Part shown: in pieces, positions 85 through 62,000 of the stretch
Layout of the letters: each line of letters opens with the position of its first letter
Position numbering within the stretch: the stretch's first letter is position 1
Assembly (NCBI GenBank): GCA_034670405.1
Contig: JAXDDX010000222.1
Coordinates: 496,001-560,000, forward strand
Length of the DNA: 64,000 bases
Reading direction: 5' to 3'
Source of the DNA: Hoplostethus atlanticus
Lineage: Eukaryota > Chordata > Actinopteri > Trachichthyiformes > Trachichthyidae
Made by a program: the position numbers and the translations under genes
Notes under the pieces: generated by a model
What the model saw: only the letters and a program-made list of their open reading frames with translations
What the model was told of the DNA's origin: nothing
Databases searched by the model: none

Positions 85-45185
<45,101 letters not shown>

Positions 45186-46250: not shown

Positions 46251-46302
46251 ATGTCTTGTGGCACGACGCTGAAGTTGGTTTCGGATTCACAGTTTCGGAT
46301 TT
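46251..46302 (+). repeat. Partial extra copy of the fold-back terminal sequence
   Basis: Just outside the left end, GACGCTGAAGTTGGTTTCGG recurs, a copy of the sequence inside the end at about 46378-46400. No such extra copy is seen outside the right end. Confidence 0.7.
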
Positions 46303-46470
46303 GGCAGTTCGGCAGAGACACCAATTTCTCCACCGACAGTATACTCAATAGACCAGAATGCAATGCAGCCACAAGAACGACGCTGAAGTTGGTTTCGGAT
46401 TCGACAGTTAAGGGGAAAGTTAAGGGAAATTTATTTCTGAGCGACGATCCTCCGTTTTTTGCACCTCTTA

Positions 46471-49235
46471 CAAAAACCACTGTACACAGACCTGTCAAAT
46501 CTGGACTAGACTATCCCAGAGAGGCTAAAGATTCCTTAAAACACAGTTTTAGATTTGTGAAACCTTTATTCTATTTGTGAAAATGCAAAACAGGGACATT
46601 TTGCTGCTTTTTTCACATCTAGACCACATGGGACCAGGTCCAGATCCAAAACCACTATACCTAGACTTGTCAAATCTGGACTAGACTATCCCAAAGAGGC
46701 TAAAGATTCCTTAAAACACAGTTTTAGATTTGTGAAACCTTTATTCTATTTGTGAAAATGCAAAACAGGGACATTTCGCTGCTTTTTTCACATCTAGACC
46801 ACATTGGACCAGCTCCAGATCCAAAACTACTATACCTAAACTTGTCAAATCTGGACTAGACTATCCCAGAGAGGCTAATGATTCCTTAAAACACAGTTTC
46901 AGATTTGTGAAACCTTTATTCTATTTGTGAAAATGCAAAAAAGGGACATTTCGCTGCTTTTTTCACATCTAGACCACATGGGACCAGGTCCAGATCCAAA
47001 CCCAGTATACCTAGACCTGTCAAATCTGGACTATATTATCCCAGAGAGACTAAAGATTCCTTAAAACACAGTTTTAGATTTGTGAAACCTTTATTCTATT
47101 TGTGAAAATGCAAAAAAGGGGACATTTCACTGCTTGTTTCACATCTAGACCACATGGGACCAGGTCCAGATCCAAACCAGTATACCTAGACCTGTCAAAT
47201 CTGGACTATATTATCCCAGAGAGGCTAAAGATTCCTTAAAACAGTGTTTTAGATTTGTGAAACCTTTATTCTATTTGTGAAAATGCAAAAAAGGGGACAT
47301 TTCACTGCTTGTTTCACATCTAGACCACATTGGACCAGGTCCAGATCCAAAACCACGATACCTAGACATGTCAAATCTGGACTAAACTATCCCAGAGAGG
47401 CTAAAGATTCCTTAAAACACAGTTTCAGATTTGTGAAACCTTTATTCTATTTGTGAAAATGCAAAAAAGGGACATTTCGCTGCTTTTTTCACAGCTAGAC
47501 CACATTGGACTAGGTCCAGATCCAAAACCACTATACCTAGACTTGTCAAATCTGGACTAGATTATCCCAGAAGGGCTAAAGATCCCTTAAAACACAGTTT
47601 CAGATTTGTGAAACCTTTATTCTATTTGTGAAAATGCAAAACAGGGACATTTCGCTGCTTTTTTCACATCTAGACCACATTGGACCAGCTCCAGATCCAA
47701 AACCACTATACCTAGACTTGTCAAATCTGGACTAGACTATCCCAGAGAGGCTAATGATTCCTTAAAACACAGTTTCAGATTTGTGAAACCTTTATTCTAT
47801 TTGTGAAAATGCAAAACAGGGGACATTTCAGCTGCTTGTTTCACATCTAGACCACATGGGACCAGGTCCAGATCCAAAACCAGTATACCCTAGACCTGTC
47901 AAATCTGGACTATACTATCCCAGAGAGGCTAAAGATTCCTTAAAACAGTGTTTTAGATTTGTGAAACCTTTATTCTATTTGTGAAAATGCAAAAAAGGGG
48001 ACATTTCACTGCTTGTTTCACATCTAGACCACATTGGACCAGGTCCAGATCCAAAACCACGATACCTAGACATGTCAAATCTGGACTAAACTATCCCAGA
48101 GAGGCTAAAGATTCCTTAAAACACAGTTTTCAGATTTGTGAAACCTTTATTCTATTTGTGAAAATGCAAAAAAGGGGACATTTCGCTGCTTTTTTCACAG
48201 CTAGACCACATTGGACTAGGTCCAGATCCAAAACCACGATACCTAGACATGTCAAATCTGGACTAGAACTATCCCAGAGAGGCTAAAGATTCCCTTAAAA
48301 CACAGTTTCAGATTTGTGAAACCTTTATTCTATTTGTGAAAATGCAAAAAAGGGACATTTCGCTGCTTTTTTCACAGCTAGACCACATTGGACCTAGGTC
48401 CAGATCCAAAACCACTATACCTAGACTTGTCAAATCTGGACTAGACTATCCCAGAGAGGGCTAAAGATCCCTTAAAACACAGTTTCAGATTTGTGAAACC
48501 TTTATTCTATTTGTGAAAATGCAAAACAGGGACATTTCGCTGCTTTTTTCACAGCTAGACCACATGGGACCAGGTCCAGATCCAAAACCACTATACCTAG
48601 ACTTGTCAAATCTGGACTAGACTATCCCAGAGAGGCTAAAGATTCCTTAAAACACAGTTTTCAGATTTGTGAAACCTTTATTCTATTTGTGAAAATGCAA
48701 AACAGGGACATTTCGCTGTTTTTTCACATCTAGACCACATGGGACCAGGTCCAGATCCAAACCCAGTATACCTAGACCTGTCAAATCTGGACTATATTAT
48801 CCCAGAGAGGCTAAAGATTCCTTAAAACACAGTTTTAGATTTGTGAAACCTTTATTCTATTTGTGAAAATGCAAAAAAGGGGACATTTCACTGCTTGTTT
48901 CACATCTAGACCACATGGGACCAGGTCCAGATCCAAAACCACCATACCTAGACATGTCAAATCTGGACTAAACTATCCCAGAGAGGCTAAAGATTCCTTA
49001 AAACACAGTTTCAGATTTGTGAAACCTTTATTCTATTTGTGAAAATGCAAAAAAGGGACATTTCGCTGCTTTTTTCACATCTAGACCACATGGGACCAGG
49101 TCCAGATCCAAAACCACGATACCTAGACTTGTCAAATCTGGACTAGATTATCCCAGAGAAGCCAGAGACTCTTTAAGACACAGTTTCAGATTGTGAAACC
49201 TTTATTCTATTTGTGAAAGTGCAAAAAATAGCAAT
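46471..49235. repeat. Left array, about 16 units of about 175 bp
   Basis: The landmark TATCCCAGAGAGGCTAAAGA occurs about every 175-178 bp (46514, 46689, 46864, 47039, 47214, 47390, 47565, 47740, 47918, 48094, 48272, 48449, 48625, 48800, 48976, 49151). Each unit also has CCTTTATTCTATTTGTGAAA and GACCACATGGGACCAGGTCC. Units differ by a few percent and by one- to three-base indels. Confidence 0.95.
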
Positions 49236-49269
49236 GTTGATGGATATAAATTGAATTGACCTTGGCACA

Positions 49270-49841
49270 TTCAAGTTCAAGTTCAAGAAGTTTATTTGTC
49301 ACATACACACACGGGGTGTGCAGTGAAATGTAAAAAGTGGCAATGCTCAACAGAAATGTGCAAAGGGCAAAATATCAGGTTCACACTATTTACAATAAAA
49401 AACCAACAATATTTACAGTATTACAGTAAGAGCTCTATATAAGAAAACAACACAATATTTACAGTAAGAGCACTTTGAAAATAAAAATATAGTAAAAAAG
49501 GGAAATCTTATGTATGTAATATAATATAAATTATGTGTAGTCGCTACCTAAGTGTGTGAGTGTGTGTGTGCATAAGAGGGGCAGTGTGTGGGTCTTGGTC
49601 GGGGGCCCTGGTGAGGTCGGAGTTCACAGTCCTGATGGCCTGAGGAAAGAAACTCCGTCTCAGTCTCTCTGTTTTGGCAGCGTGACTACGGAGGCGCTTG
49701 CCTGACCGCAGCAGCTGAAACAGTCCGTTGTTGGGGTGGTGAGGATCCTTCATGATCCTGCAGGCTCTGGTTCTGCACCTCCTGGTGTATAAGTCCTGCA
49801 GGGTGGGGAGTGTAGTTCCAGTTCAGCCGAACGCACTACTC
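49270..49841 (-). mobile_element. 5'-truncated L2/CR1-group LINE inserted in the left arm
   Basis: It lies between GACCTTGGCACA and TCAGTGTATAAGT, which are nearly adjacent in the right arm, so the insertion is younger than the arm pair. It keeps the end of the RT protein (DPHHPNNGLFQLLRSGKRLR, RRSFFPQAIRTVNSD) and the TATTTGTCACATACAC tail. Confidence 0.85.
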
Positions 49842-50085
49842 TCAGTGTATAAGTCCACGTCTCTCCATTTAATTTTCTATTGCCATGAGGATTGCATCTT
49901 TCTCACTTCAAAACAAAAGTAGAAAAGTTATTTTTACCTTTTGAAAAACAATCAAAACATCTTCATACATTGGTTAATTAGTTAATGTACTCTTCAAATT
50001 CTTCTTTCAAAATAATATTATTATAGGAATATTATAGGATTAGATATTGTTAAAAAAAAACAAATCGTCTACTGTATAGGTGTAA

Positions 50086-50103
50086 GTGTGTGTGTGTGCG
50101 TGC

Positions 50104-50135
<32 letters not shown>
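50086..50135 (+). repeat. TG microsatellite
   Basis: TG repeat with a few TGCG variants in the core of the fold-back element. Confidence 0.95.
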
Positions 50136-50140
<5 letters not shown>

Positions 50141-50341
50141 GTGCATTTGTATGCATTGTGAAGGCTCTAGATTTTAACAGACTCAAAAAGCAGGAGCATT
50201 AAAAACAGAGTTTACTTTGCCAGCAGGCATAACACAGGCCACCAACAGGTTAAACAGGTAAAGGGTTAAGGCAGGCAGGAAAAAGCTAAAAAAAACTAGC
50301 ATAGTTCAAAATCAGAATTGCAGGCAGGCAGATTCAGGCAC

Positions 50342-50585
50342 AAATCAAATCACAAATCACATTTATTTGTATAGCCCTTAATCACCGTTACAGTCTCTAA
50401 GGGCTTCACAGTGCCCAACATGTGAAAATAATAAATGGTTAGTACACAACATCCCCCAGCCTTAGACCCTCAGAGAGGACAAGGAAAAACTCCCACAAAA
50501 CCTCACTGGGAAAATTGGGAGAAACCTTGGGAGGGGCTACTCAGAGAGGGATCCCCCTACCAGGACGGTTGGGCGTGCAATAGAT
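50342..50585 (+). repeat. Common fish interspersed repeat in the fold-back core
   Basis: CACATTTATTTGTATAGCCC, AGGGCTTCACAGTGCCCA, GGACAAGGAAAAACTCCC and GAAACCTTGGGAGGGGC are the landmarks of a widespread teleost repeat. The family name is not certain. It is probably a later insertion into the core. Confidence 0.6.
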
Positions 50586-50901
50586 GCCGAGTTTGGGCAA
50601 GCAGCGTATACACAATATATGAAAGGCAAAACAAAAGGGCTGCAACGCAAATGACTAGGCTACTGTGCAGGTCTACAGTATAAACTCTTTAAACACAATG
50701 GGGACAACTGTTAGGCAGGAGAAGAAGAGCAGGGTCTGAAATGATGGCAGATGTTAGTGATAAACAAGATGAATTAAATGATTTCTAAATCAAATGTTGA
50801 TAATTGACATTGAAGTATTGATAGACAGCTTTTCACAAAAACGTCTTCATATATATAGATCAAATGAAGAACATGGCTGAATTATGGTACTTCTAACACA
50901 G

Positions 50902-51177
50902 GCCACGGTGAAGGCTTTGGAGAAAGTGAGGAAACTTACAATTGCAGAAGCAGTGACAGAGGTTGACCGTGGCCAGTTAGAGGAAAGGTGAGAGAACAAC
51001 GTGATTTTTTTTTTTTGAAAGAAGAATTTGAAGAGTACATTAACTAATTGACCAATCTATGAAGATGTTTTGATTGTTTTTCAAAAGGTAAGAATAACTT
51101 TTCTACTTTTGTTTTGAAGTGAGAAAGACGCGATCCTCATGGCGATAGAAAATGAAATGGAGAGACTTATACACTGA
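50902..51177 (+). CDS. Possible two-exon coding remnant in the fold-back core
   Basis: A frame opens after an acceptor-like AACACAG at 50902 and reads ATVKALEKVRKLTIAEAVTE, then VDRGQLEE. A GTGAGA donor is at 50988 and a TTTTGAAG acceptor ends at 51119. The joined frame goes on EKDAILMAIENEMERLIH to TGA at 51175-51177. The first AATAAA of the right array lies about 55 bp on. The second part lies inside the inverted arm and has a broken mirror copy at 49870-49915. I recognise no family. It could be the end of the gene of an autonomous partner, or chance. Confidence 0.35.
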
Positions 51178-51225
51178 ACGTGCCAAGGTCAATTCAATTT
51201 ATATCCATCAACATTGCAATTTTTT

Positions 51226-53610
51226 GCATTTTCACAAATGAAATAAAGGTTTCACAAATCTAAAACTGTGTCTTAAAGTGTCTCTGGCCTCTCTGGGACA
51301 ATATAGTCCAGATTTGACAAGTCTAGGTATAGTGGTTTTGGATCTGGACCTGGTCCAATGTGGTCTAGATGTGAAAAAAGCAGCTAAATGTCCCTGTTTT
51401 GCATTTTCACAAATAGAATAAAGGTTTCACAAATCTGAAACTGTGTTTTAAGGAATCTGTAGCCCTTCTGGGATAATCTAGTCCAGATTTGACAAGTCTA
51501 GGTATAGTGGTTTTGGATCTGGACCTGGTCCAATGTGGTCTAGATGTGAAAAAAGCAGTGAAATGTCCCCTTTTTTGCATTTTCACAAATAGAATAAAGG
51601 TTTCACAAATCTGAGACTGTGTCTTAAAGCGTCTCTGGCCTCTCTGGGATAGTCTACTCCAGATTTGACAAGTCTAGGTATAGTGGTTTTGGATCTGGAC
51701 CTGGTCCCATGTGGTCTAGATGTGAAAAAAGCAGCGAAATGTCCCTGTTTTGCATTTTCACAAATAGAATAAAGGTTTCACAAATCTGAAACTGTGTTTT
51801 AAAGAATCTTTAGCCCCTCTGTGATAAGCTAGTCCAGATTTGACAAGTCTAGGTATAGTAGTTTTGGATCTGGACCTGGTCCCATATGGTCTAGATGTGA
51901 AAAAAGCAGCGAAATGTCCCTGTTTTGCATTTTCACAAGTAGAATAAAGGCTTCACAAATCTGAAACTGTGTTTTAAAGAATCTTTAGCCTCTCTGGGAT
52001 AAACTAGTCCAGATTTGACAAGTCTAGGTATAGTAGTTTTGGATCTGGACCTGGTCCCATGTGGTCTAGATGTGAAAAAAGCAGCGAAATGTCCCTGTTT
52101 TGCATTTTCACAAATAGAATAAAGGTTTCACAAATCTAAAACTGTGTTTTAAGGAATCTTTAGCCTCTCTGGGATAGTCTAGTCCAGATTTGACAAGTCT
52201 AGGTATCATGGTTTTGGATCTGGACCTGGTCCCATGTGGTCTAGATGTGAAAAAAGCAGCGAAATGTCCTTGTTTTGCATTTTCACAAATAGAATAAAGG
52301 TTTCACAAATCTGAAACTGTGTTTTAAAGAATCTTTAGCCTCTCTGGGATAAACTAGTCCAGATTTGACAAGTCTAGGTATAGTAGTTTTGGATCTGGAC
52401 CTGGTCCAATGTGGTCTAGATGTGAAAAAAGCAGCGAAATGTCCCTGTTTTGCATTTTCACAAATAGAATAAAGGTTTCACAAATCTAAAACTGTGTTTT
52501 AAATAATCTTTAGCCTCTCTGGGATAGTCTAGTCCAGATTTGACAAGTCTAGGTATCGTGGTTTAGATCTGGACCTGGTCCCATGTGGTCTAGATGTGAA
52601 AAAAGCAGCGAAATGTCCCTGTTTTGCATTTTCACAAATAGAATAAAGGTTTCACAAATGTAAAACTGTGTTTTAAGGAATCTTTAGCCTCTCTGGGATA
52701 GTCTAGTCCAGATTTGACAAGTCTAGGTATAGTAGTTTTGGATCTGGACCTGGTCCCATGTGGTCTAGATGTGAAAAAAGCAGCGAAATGTCCCTGTTTT
52801 GCATTTTCACAAATAGAATAAAGGTTTCACAAATCTAAAACTGTGTTTTAAATAATCTTTAGCCTCTCTGGGATAGTCTAGTCCAGATTTGACAAGTCAA
52901 GTTTGGATCTGGACCTGGTCCCATGTGGTCTAGATGTGAAAAAAGTAGCGAAATGTCCCTGTTTTGCATTTTCACAAATAGAATAAAGGTTTCACAAATC
53001 TAAAACTGTGTTTTAAATAATCTTTAGCCTCTCTGGGATAGTCTAGTCCAGATTTGACAAGTCTAGGTATCGTGGTTTTGGATCTGGACCTGGTCCCATG
53101 TGGTCTAGATGTGAAAAAAGCAGCAAAATGTCCCTGTTTTGCATTTTCACAAATAGAATAAAGGTTTCACAAATCTGAAACTGTGTTTTAAAGAATCTTT
53201 AGCCCCTCTGTGATAAGCTAGCCCAGATTTGATAAGTCTAGGTATAGTAGTTTTGGATCTGGACCTGGTCCCATGTGGTCTAGATGTGAAAAAAGCAGCA
53301 AAATGTCCCTGTTTTGCATTTTCACAAATAGAATAAAGGTTTCACAAATCTGAAACTGTGTTTTAAAGAATCTTTAGCCCCTCTGTGATAAGGTAGTCCA
53401 GATTTGATAAGTCTAGGTATAGTAGTTTTGGATCTGGACCTGGTCCCATGTGGTCTAGATGTGAAAAAGCAGCGAAATGTCCCTGTTTTGCATTTTCACA
53501 AATAGAATAAAGGATTCACAAATCTGAAACTGTGTTTTAAAGAATCTTTAGCCTCTCTGGGATAATCTAGTCCAGATTTGACAGGTCTATGTACAGTGGT
53601 TTTTGTAAGA
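51226..53610. repeat. Right array, about 14 units, inverse of the left array
   Basis: The same unit occurs in inverse orientation, with GAATAAAGGTTTCACAAATC in each and GCCTCTCTGGGATAGTCTAG-type landmarks about every 175 bp from about 51296 to 53561. Confidence 0.95.
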
Positions 53611-53762
53611 GGTGCAAAAAACGGAGGATCGTCGCTCAGAAATAAATTTCCCTTAACTTTCCGCTTAACTGTCGAATCCGAAACCAACTTCAGCGTCGTT
53701 CTTGTGGCTGCATTGCATTCTGGTCTATTGAGTATACTGTCGGTGGAGAAATTGGTGTCTCT

Positions 53763-59000: not shown

Positions 59001-62000
59001 TAATGAAATGCAGAGTGATTCGAGACGACGTTTCCAGTGGGGTTATGAATTGTGTGCACTTAAAGTGGTCCCGATTAAAATTCTGTGGATGTTTCGTTCC
59101 TGACCTTGTTAAAATAGCTCGCCCTCCCGATCGGTCCAATCTCATCGGTGTAATTGAGGAAACCGAGGCTGGCCTCAGTCAAACCATAACTCTCCCTAAT
59201 CCTGATACTCCCAAAGCGTTTGGCAAACTCCTTCCACACATCTGACCTGAGACCACTTCCTGCCGCCAGCCGAACACTGTGAGCTCTCTCCTCGGGAACC
59301 TGGAACGAGTTACAATACTTAAAATTTACATGCAATGGTAAAAGCAGCATCATTCTCAATGTAAAGCAGTGCAGAACTAATTTAAGAAATGAAGAAAAAT
59401 GCTGGAGTCGATATCATTCGGTCAGGTTTAAAGTAAGAGGGAAGCAGAATAGAGCTGAAACGTTTGGGTTCCCGGAAGTAAATTTACCATTTAATTTTCC
59501 CATAGAGAATTAGATTACTAGCCATAATGTGTTAACAGTGTAAGGTAGACCTACCATGAGCCATCAGAGTGTGAAACGACTCCATCGAACTGATTTCAAC
59601 TTCCTGTTCTTTGTGAAATACTACAATACCCACAAGCTTTAGCAAATTCCCTCATCAGAAAGGTCACTGTTACCACAGAAACATTAAAGTAAACTAAAGT
59701 AGCATGTGGTTAGTAGTCAGACCAGAGAGAATTAAGTCAGCTAGTAACCTGTATCAGTGATTGGCACTGCTTCACCATGGTTTTACTGTCCGACGTGATG
59801 TCGTTTTAGGGATGAGGAGAAGAAAATTATTACAAATCACTATTATTTCGTTGACTGTTGAAAATGGGAAGGGAATCGAGGCCATCACTAACAGTGCTGT
59901 ATTTCCTATTAAACGTTATGTACAAGGTCTTGTACCCTTGCCATTTTTTTTATTTTTCATATATATACACATACAGTCATGATTGAAAGTTTGTGAACCC
60001 CTGACTGAAATAAAGGATCTTAATCAATTTCCTATGTTTTTAGAGGAAATTGTCCATCTACTAAAATGAAAATAGTTTAAACAGGATTAGTGTACGTGCA
60101 AAAATAAATTAACCTCCTCTCGCATTAGTTAAATCAAGCAGGTAAGTAGAATCAGGTGGGGGAATACAGGTAATTACAGCCTACACAGTATTCATCTGCA
60201 AGGGAAATACGTGTGTGCTACAAAGGGTGAGAAACATGCATCAGCATCACTTTCTATCACCATCTAATTCTAATAGCCTGAGGTAAATTAAATGATTGTT
60301 GTATGTAGTAGACAAGATGCAAAGTTTCTGACTCTAGGTTAATGCGTACTTATACGATATTTAGCTTTAAAGAGTAAGTAGATCAGTGGTTCCCAACTCT
60401 GGTCTGCTTTCATTCTAGCCATCTAACAGGGACAGATTTAGACCTGGGATGTCAGGTAAATGCAATTAACTACCTGATAGGACAGAAAACCAGCAGTATT
60501 CTGGGTTGGGACTGACTGAAAAAGGCCCAAGTAGATTTCAGCTTCTCTAAACATCTACAGTAGCATTTGATTGAATTATAGCGCCACAATCTGGACAATC
60601 AGGGTCATAAAGCACAAGTTTTAGTCGAAGCCCATAAGACCTCTGGGCTTGAACAACCTAATAAATTCATAACAAAACAGTAGTAGTTCAGCCCTATGGA
60701 GCTGAACCCCTAATAGTGCTATTAAGCCAGCACAACAGCAAAATACACCAAGACAATAAGAGCAGTGGTTCAGCCCTAATGACATTTCTGATTTAAATCT
60801 AGGAGTAACCAAGATTAGAATTTGAGGAACAGACACTCATCGGTGGCCTAATGTTTGATGGACAGACACTTGGACTATTAGGCTACTGCACTGGTGCTGC
60901 AAAGCAGTGTGGGAACAAAAGAAAGGTTTTGTGATAGTGCAACCTAAGACGTGACAAATCTGGCCTTGTAAAAAAAGAAAAAGTGATGTTTTGATTTTTA
61001 AAGTGTGTTTGAAATAAATTCCTGATATGAAATTATGACAACCCCCTGTAGGGTTCACAAACTTTCAAACATGACTGACAGCAAGATTGCATGATCTCCC
61101 CGTGTTTCGCTGGGTTTCCTCCAGGTACCCCGGTTTCCTCCAACAGTCCAAAATCATGCGAGTCAGGTGCATTGGAGACTCTAAATTGCCCATAGGTGTG
61201 AATGTGAGTGCGTTAGGCCGTCTATGTGTTCGCCCTGTGATGGACTACGACCTGTGTTTCCCTGCCTTCTGCCCAATGCATGCTGGGATAGGCTCCAGCC
61301 ACCTGTGACCCCGAATAGGAGTAAGCGGGTATGAATGAAAGAATGAATAAAAATGGCCAGGGTATAAGACTGTACTTGTTATGAGCTCATGATTCTGATT
61401 GGTTCAGTTCAAACCATAAAACTAAATCAAGAATTTATGAAATTTCTATGGAGAAAATGAATGGAAAATTTACTTCGGTCACATTTCCGCTCTATGAGAA
61501 AGGGGGGTAGACAACATGGGACCAAGGTAGAACAGTGAAAGAAATAACAACATTTCTATCCACACCAATGGGAGTTGTACTGTATACGACTGCCATGTTG
61601 GGGAAAAGGGGTATAGTCACCACAAAACGTCTCATTCAAATTTCTTTTTAAAAATATAGGACAGGGGGCAGAAACTGACTTCTTGTTTTAAATGCCATTT
61701 TTAAAGCACCAATCTTACCGTGGGCTGGTTGACCAAGTATCGACAGAGCTCTCCTATGTATTGGAACACAGTGACATTGTATTTCACACAGTCCTTCCAA
61801 AATTGTCTAGCAGAAAACTTCCTTTTTAACACACAAGTTGCACCTGCGATCCAAAGAGGGCGGCCAAAAAAAAGGAAAAGAACAAAAGGTAAAGAATGTT
61901 TTAGACCAGCTTCAGACAACACACTGCAATAATGCAATATACCTGTTTTATTTTCAACGTTCTACTATATTAGAGAAAGTTCTCATACCTTTATAATTAT

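Follow-up and report, generated by a model that had tools for sequence, protein, structure and literature searches.

The window analysed here is a 64,000-nucleotide stretch of the Hoplostethus atlanticus genome (GenBank assembly GCA_034670405.1, contig JAXDDX010000222.1, forward-strand positions 496,001 to 560,000), and it contains a 7437-bp element with two long inverted arms that consist largely of 175-bp tandem repeats. This element is a member of a Foldback-type transposon family that is dispersed through the genome and apparently non-autonomous. Copies of the family have fixed ends, a 9-bp target duplication in most cases, an empty site for one copy (L044; L numbers denote fetched loci and C numbers contigs) and arrays of mostly fixed phase, with two array lengths in what look like duplicates of a single insertion.

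Because the 9-mer TCTTGTGGC is found in direct orientation at both 46254-46262 and 53700-53708, we place the boundaries of the window copy at 46263-53699; before insertion, the site would have read AACATGTCTTGTGGCTGCATTGC, with a single TCTTGTGGC. A first-pass annotation had instead set the limits at 46314..53762. The inverted symmetry does start exactly at those two positions, but they are not the true ends, because an inverted copy of flank DNA sits in the left end: of the near-identical 225-bp ends proposed there, the outermost 63 bp are right-flank DNA. The same annotation's picture of two satellite-like inverted arms, with 16 and 14 units of about 175 bp, around a core of about 1 kb with shared inner sequence agrees with what we find: 15.7 and 13.7 units, arms 91-97% alike in the 25 longest of the 247 inverted pairs in the window, and a loop flanked by an inner inverted repeat. 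The parts are as follows.

46254..46262, plus strand: left target-site duplication TCTTGTGGC; the identical 9-mer stands in the same orientation at 53700-53708.
46263..46309, plus strand: the first 47 bp, all that remains of the original left outer repeat; 2 differences to family-end positions 1-47.
46314..46376, minus strand: inverted copy of the right flank (53700-53762); 63/63 identical, and 65/66 over 46311-46376.
46377..46472, plus strand: inner-left outer repeat, a probable copy of the right outer repeat, from which it differs at 1 of 97 positions (46377-46473).
46473..49228, plus strand: left array, 15.7 units of 175 bp (Tandem Repeats Finder).
49226..49273, plus strand: left part 1 of the inner inverted repeat, which matches the right core at 95.8%.
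49271..49841, no strand: later insertion of 571 bp within the left inner repeat; TCA at each edge, with 49274-49844 equivalent; absent from L041.
49842..50015, plus strand: left part 2 of the inner inverted repeat, which matches the right core at 92.0%.
50016..51009, no strand: loop, type A; common to L041, L044, L046, L049, L050 and L051.
50336..50623, no strand: second insertion, within the loop and 288 bp long; AGGCA at each edge; absent from L041.
51010..51222, minus strand: inner inverted repeat, right; at least 41 genome matches (40 of 110 candidates scored).
51222..53603, minus strand: right array, 13.7 units of 175 bp (Tandem Repeats Finder).
53604..53699, minus strand: right outer repeat.
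53700..53708, plus strand: right target-site duplication TCTTGTGGC; matches the left 9-mer.

The 571-bp insertion appears as the same gap when the window copy is aligned to L044, L046 and L050, and the window loop matches those of L041, L044 and L050 at 87-94% over two long aligned blocks that include the inner repeats. Next to the element, an AMP-binding match at 59078-59413 (E 8.9e-7) agrees with the earlier assignment of a neighbouring gene to slc27a6, although at 28.5 bits it narrowly misses the cut-off of 29.9.

Dispersed copies with fixed ends

We searched the host's own assembly (633 Mb, 1161 contigs). With window positions 46314-46472 as query, there were at least 44 genome matches (40 of 2030 candidates scored); among the matches listed outside the window locus, all start at query position 57 or later, most of them at 63-64 or 79, and therefore the first ~60 bp are, in what was scored, peculiar to the window locus. 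The 175-bp unit gave at least 347 matches (39 of 201 candidates scored), in plus and minus blocks on many contigs. The 20-bp end motif ACGACGCTGAASTTGGTTTC occurs at 98 exact sites, 49 per strand, against 0 for a reversed-pattern control, and these sites are therefore not due to chance; with up to two mismatches the count rises to 145 (77 and 68 by strand), against 2 for the control (0 and 2). Among the 98 exact motifs, 25 neighbouring pairs (less than 12 kb apart) converge, spanning 252-7323 bp end to end. One pair, on C16, is in reverse order and lies between two tandem-duplicated copies sharing a left flank, and two pairs share a strand: a pair on C29 separated by 8.5 kb, and the two left ends of the window copy, separated by 114 bp. 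Scattered copies alike in their ends but differing in their flanks had been named in advance as a test of a transposon, and their presence supports that reading.

Two of these places deserve separate mention. At C58:214960-215211, two family ends lie 252 bp apart end to end, a minimal copy with little space for an array. L041 (C16:6046500-6054800) holds two tandem element copies with the same left flank, in a 4.2-kb segmental duplication bearing the element.

From 20 fetched regions we obtained 12 complete copies (both ends present), which with the window copy makes 13. The usual layout is outer repeat, unit array, inner inverted repeat of ~213 bp, loop, and then the mirror image. The outer repeat is about 96-111 bp long and begins ACGACGCTGAAG, such that family ends read ACGACGCTGAAG...CTTCAGCGTCGT; it comes in a long subtype with two TTTCGGATT blocks and a short subtype with one, the short one being present too in copies such as L003 and L004. 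The inner repeat is found on both sides in eight of the 13 complete copies (L041a, L044, L046, L049, L050, L051, L052 and the window), on one side in L045 and (partial, 73%) L040, and on neither side in L042, L057 and L058. Loops are of type A in the window copy and the loci listed with it above, and of type B in L052, L053 and L043. L042 (1294 bp) and L058 (1032 bp) are nearly all arm, and in L057 (1327 bp) the left side shows six unit hits, the right side one fragment. L040 (C7:2299000-2308800) is divergent, with a loop 66-73% identical to the others, a left outer repeat at 85% and a broken right array, and is perhaps an older subfamily.

For the target-site count we left out L046, which occupies the same site as L044, so that 12 independent complete copies were compared. 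Nine of them match over 9 bp at 7/9 or better (four exactly, four at 8/9 and one at 7/9), whereas the best of 132 mismatched control pairs reached 6/9; exact duplications at lengths 4-8 and 10-12 were found in none of the 12. Because the L044 insertion sits in a dispersed repeat, empty copies of its site exist elsewhere in the genome. A 200-bp query made by joining the L044 flanks over one CCTCCCAGC gave 19 genome matches, nine of which run uninterrupted over positions 1-200 (93-100%) with a single 9-mer; three more partly span the joint (C126, C280, C205) and one covers only 1-45. The filled sites on C420 and C829 split into two halves with a 9-bp overlap (1-100 and from 92). The duplications and this paralogous empty site bear out the earlier suggestion that the element is a transposon.

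Arm length varies from 1.7 to 18.5 units among 23 arms, and an L053 arm has 29 unit hits. For the 23 arms with both joints located, we took the array length between outer repeat and core modulo 175; 19 of them fall at 107-128, and therefore the arrays mostly vary by whole units between fixed joints. L044 and L046 provide a direct comparison: their flanks are 97.9% identical over 1938 bp on the left and 95.7% over 394 bp on the right, their loops are 96.9% identical, and their arms hold 14.7/10.7 and 7.7/8.35 units, respectively. By these alignments, they look like one insertion that was duplicated with its surroundings and whose arrays have changed since. Of 259 complete units, 133 have their closest relative in their own arm, 12 in the opposite arm of the locus and 114 at another locus, with ties assigned to the same arm; leaving out the units of L041, which holds two duplicated copies, the counts are 126, 11 and 111. 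Mean unit identity differs little, at 0.90-0.97 within arms and 0.91-0.94 to other loci. We infer that unequal exchange or slippage, acting mostly inside single arms, makes the arrays grow and shrink.

Superfamily and coding capacity

The family has the structure that defines Foldback elements: tandem repeats within long inverted ends, which the first-pass annotation had named as the hallmark, dispersal with fixed ends and a duplication, and arms of variable length. The 9-bp duplication together with the long composite ends points to the Mutator/Foldback superfamily; Mutator-like elements (MULEs) make target duplications that are mostly 9 bp long, with a range of 8-11 bp (PMC6446971 for the range; here and below, statements on published systems follow the available portions of the papers cited). 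We are confident that the element is a DNA transposon that moves by cut and paste, has the Foldback build and is non-autonomous, a Mutator-like transposase most likely supplying its mobility in trans. We infer both the type of enzyme and the mobilisation in trans; such a transposase would recognise the outer repeat, cut at ACGACG...CGTCGT and create the 9-bp target duplication.

No transposase was recognised in the frames of at least 80 amino acids from 15 interiors including that of the window (by eye, part by Pfam), and the family is therefore non-autonomous as far as seen. A search with the PF10551 profile yielded 2 matches (13 candidates), and one with the C62 protein yielded 9 (11 candidates); the MULE-domain matches lie on C62, C65, C1080 and C4, and none of these contigs is among those carrying the 98 exact end motifs. 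When the C62 MULE proteins were compared with 21 loci, there was one hit, at E 0.74. Pfam returned nothing for one L053 frame, and nothing at E 0.01 for six more frames (L040, L049, L054, L056).

One pair of ends on C30 (L047 and L048, 17 kb apart) was considered as a coding copy and set aside: the interior, examined except for 1.6 kb, contains frames that read as a gypsy-type retroelement and one frame matching a PWWP3A/B domain. Of the gypsy-type frames, the one submitted to Pfam gave only a zinc knuckle. The two ends are probably separate insertions. Several other coding stretches were seen along the way. In L051, a 118-amino-acid frame at 3165-3518 with a weak PHD-finger match (E 0.034) lies in a stretch that breaks the left arm. 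L054 (C80:2213500-2223000) has DUF1759 and Pao peptidase retroelement frames at 5239-9295, beyond the left arm of a family member that was fetched without its right end. A 1761-amino-acid frame at C65:17775-22958 contains four tandem stretches matching the C62 MULE protein at 94-97%; a transposase multiplied within one frame is odd, and could be an assembly effect. At L059 (C62:1975870-1979010), a 535-amino-acid MULE transposase frame is followed by a GGGGTACTTT-type minisatellite, which recalls the description of Rehavkus.

It is conceivable, if rather unlikely, that the family is a Foldback-like element of another superfamily, as Galileo is in the P superfamily, and that its transposase is not Mutator-like; P and Galileo target duplications are shorter, at 7-8 bp. 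The length here is sharply 9 bp, inside the MULE range (PMC6446971). In favour of such an origin, Foldback structure may evolve independently across lineages, with exceptions to Mutator membership (PMC4079207), and no Mutator-like copy with the family ends was found.

A number of results weigh against a Mutator-mobilised Foldback transposon, or at least fit it less well. No transposase was found with the family ends, and since only part of the long copies was covered, a coding copy may have been missed. The outer repeat resembles the 175-bp unit no better than shuffled sequence does, and core and unit share only 7-10 bp; the units are therefore not demonstrated to carry transposase sites. Four of the 23 arms are out of phase (51, 59, 61 and 84 modulo 175). 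L040, L041a and L052 match at 1-3 of 9 positions in the duplication comparison (L040 at 7/10 for length 10), and a third filled L044-type site, on C608, splits at 1-100 / 100-200 without the 9-bp overlap.

The left end of the window copy

From the outside inwards, this left end consists of 47 bp of outer repeat, 4 bp, 63 bp that are the reverse complement of the right flank (53700-53762), and a full outer repeat. We rejected the outer 63 bp as part of the terminal repeat, as they are identical to the right flank and no listed match outside the locus covers them. The inner-left and right outer repeats are both of the short subtype, and the outer stub is of the long one. Variant TTCGACAGTTAAG is present in both the inner-left and right outer repeats and in no other fetched locus, and variant AAATTTATTTCTGAGCG, also present in both, is found elsewhere among the fetched loci only in L040. 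The first units just inside the two arms diverge more than the outer repeats do. When 300 bp per side were compared at E 1e-4, an inverted flank copy was detected in one of the 13 complete copies, that of the window. The same test gave non-inverted flank hits for L041, a tandem duplication, and for L040, where 228 aligned positions are 72% identical; the right flank of L040 resembles part of its own right arm, at 72%.

The left end was probably repaired from the right arm; the arrangement itself is read directly in the assembly, and the order of events and the mechanism are reconstructed from it. At some later time, a break or a stalled fork within the left end may have been repaired with the inverted right arm as template, and synthesis would then have crossed the right outer repeat and copied 63-66 bp of the right flank before rejoining the left outer-repeat stub, the join possibly guided by microhomology of AG, or of 4/5 bases. 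The outcome would be the false longer symmetry at 46314 and 53762. For comparison, gap filling in single terminal inverted repeat (TIR) transposons involves microhomology of 1-36 bp, with a median of 2 (PMC8277862). More tentatively, foldback arms might in general serve as templates for each other's repair, with a break at one end healed from the opposite end and bringing flank DNA with it. If so, the window copy would be a frozen step in the exchange, homogenisation and extension of foldback ends, and the family a vertebrate system in which to watch satellite arrays and end-swapping arise inside a transposon.

There is a small chance that the left end is instead the product of assembly or of a chimeric inverted read, with no repair in the animal. 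Inverted chimeras are a known artefact, and the arrangement was seen in only one of the 13 complete copies, but a single base in 97 separates the inner-left outer repeat from the right one, and the outer stub retains the correct 9-mer and the other end subtype; repair from the right arm remains the account we favour. As for the whole locus being a palindromic rearrangement of a chromosomal satellite, an array inverted locally with its symmetry extended and no transposon involved, this is very improbable: the arms are indeed satellite-like and much alike, the array of L053 is long and lies on one side (29 unit hits, the fetched region lacking a left end) and the window's outer 63 bp are a local inverted duplication, but with fixed ends at about 145 places, 9-bp duplications and empty sites that are uninterrupted and have one 9-mer, rearrangement applies only to the left-end 63 bp. 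The alternatives offered with the first annotation, namely sequence unique in the genome, a rearranged satellite or an assembly artefact, likewise do not account for the dispersal, the duplications and the empty site.

Relation to known systems

As far as the literature covered shows, the family is new, although its kind is known. Its insertion history is well supported, and the window copy has one end that is unusual and was probably repaired. We found no described fish foldback family of such build in that literature, although one may be named in Repbase or in subscription journals.

The closest described analogue that we found, compared by description only, is Tetris of Drosophila virilis (PMC4079207). 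Like the present family, it has inverted repeats in up to three parts, with an outer flanking domain, a variable number of ~220-bp tandem repeats and an inner domain; a variable middle without apparent coding capacity; duplications of 8-10 bp; no autonomous copy found; and one allele pair that differs by a whole unit (PMC4079207). Its assignment to Mutator was argued likewise, and the outer domain and unit of Tetris share a 37-bp stretch (PMC4079207), unlike those here, which show no similarity beyond shuffles. The present family also differs in its 175-bp unit and its fish host.

The FB4 / FB-NOF elements of Drosophila have a 9-bp duplication and short repeats; no NOF-like gene turned up here, no search having been aimed at NOF. 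FB4 shares the repetitive fold-back ends, and template switching has been proposed for it (PMC8277862). Tm1, a Mutator/Foldback element of Meloidogyne, resembles our family in its composite ends, internal repeats and variable length, and 45 of 53 complete elements have duplications of 8-10 bp, mostly 9 bp; unlike here, its repeat motif is ~14 bp long, its outer motifs are asymmetric and 7 bp long, and there is an element encoding a MULE-like transposase (PMC3169594). Rehavkus MULEs likewise have a 9-bp duplication, with TIRs of 26-400 bp and a minisatellite before the 3' TIR, but their listed hosts are arthropods and annelids and they encode a PHD-finger transposase (PMC6446971); no transposase was found with the ends here.

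Among vertebrates, the Xenopus miniature inverted-repeat transposable elements (MITEs) miDNA4 and Xstir combine terminal inverted repeats with satellite-like arrays, and single strands of the zebrafish Angel MITE self-pair (both cited in PMC12628747). Compared by description, the Xenopus arrays are internal to the MITEs, and Angel is without described arm arrays, unlike the present family (PMC12628747). Pack-TIRs offer a parallel to the left end, in that nearby non-element DNA is captured in a single TIR copy by template switching with short microhomology (PMC8277862). Here, however, the filler would be the element's own flank, reached via the opposite inverted arm, and the break lies in the outer repeat, whereas the published breakpoints lean to the interior (PMC8277862).

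Foldback transposons with satellite-length arm repeats have been described in a fly, with related builds in nematodes and internal-array MITEs in frogs. The present family, which has some 145 detectable ends, empty sites and a single insertion seen at two array sizes, yields direct data on array change inside a transposon, and the rearranged left end of the window copy indicates that inverted arms can mislead boundary calls and may repair each other.

Other transposon remains lie in the window at 5485-6024, 14281-15507, 24618-27888 and 36469-37092; they comprise a DDE_3 endonuclease, two reverse transcriptase frames, an endonuclease frame and a Pao peptidase.

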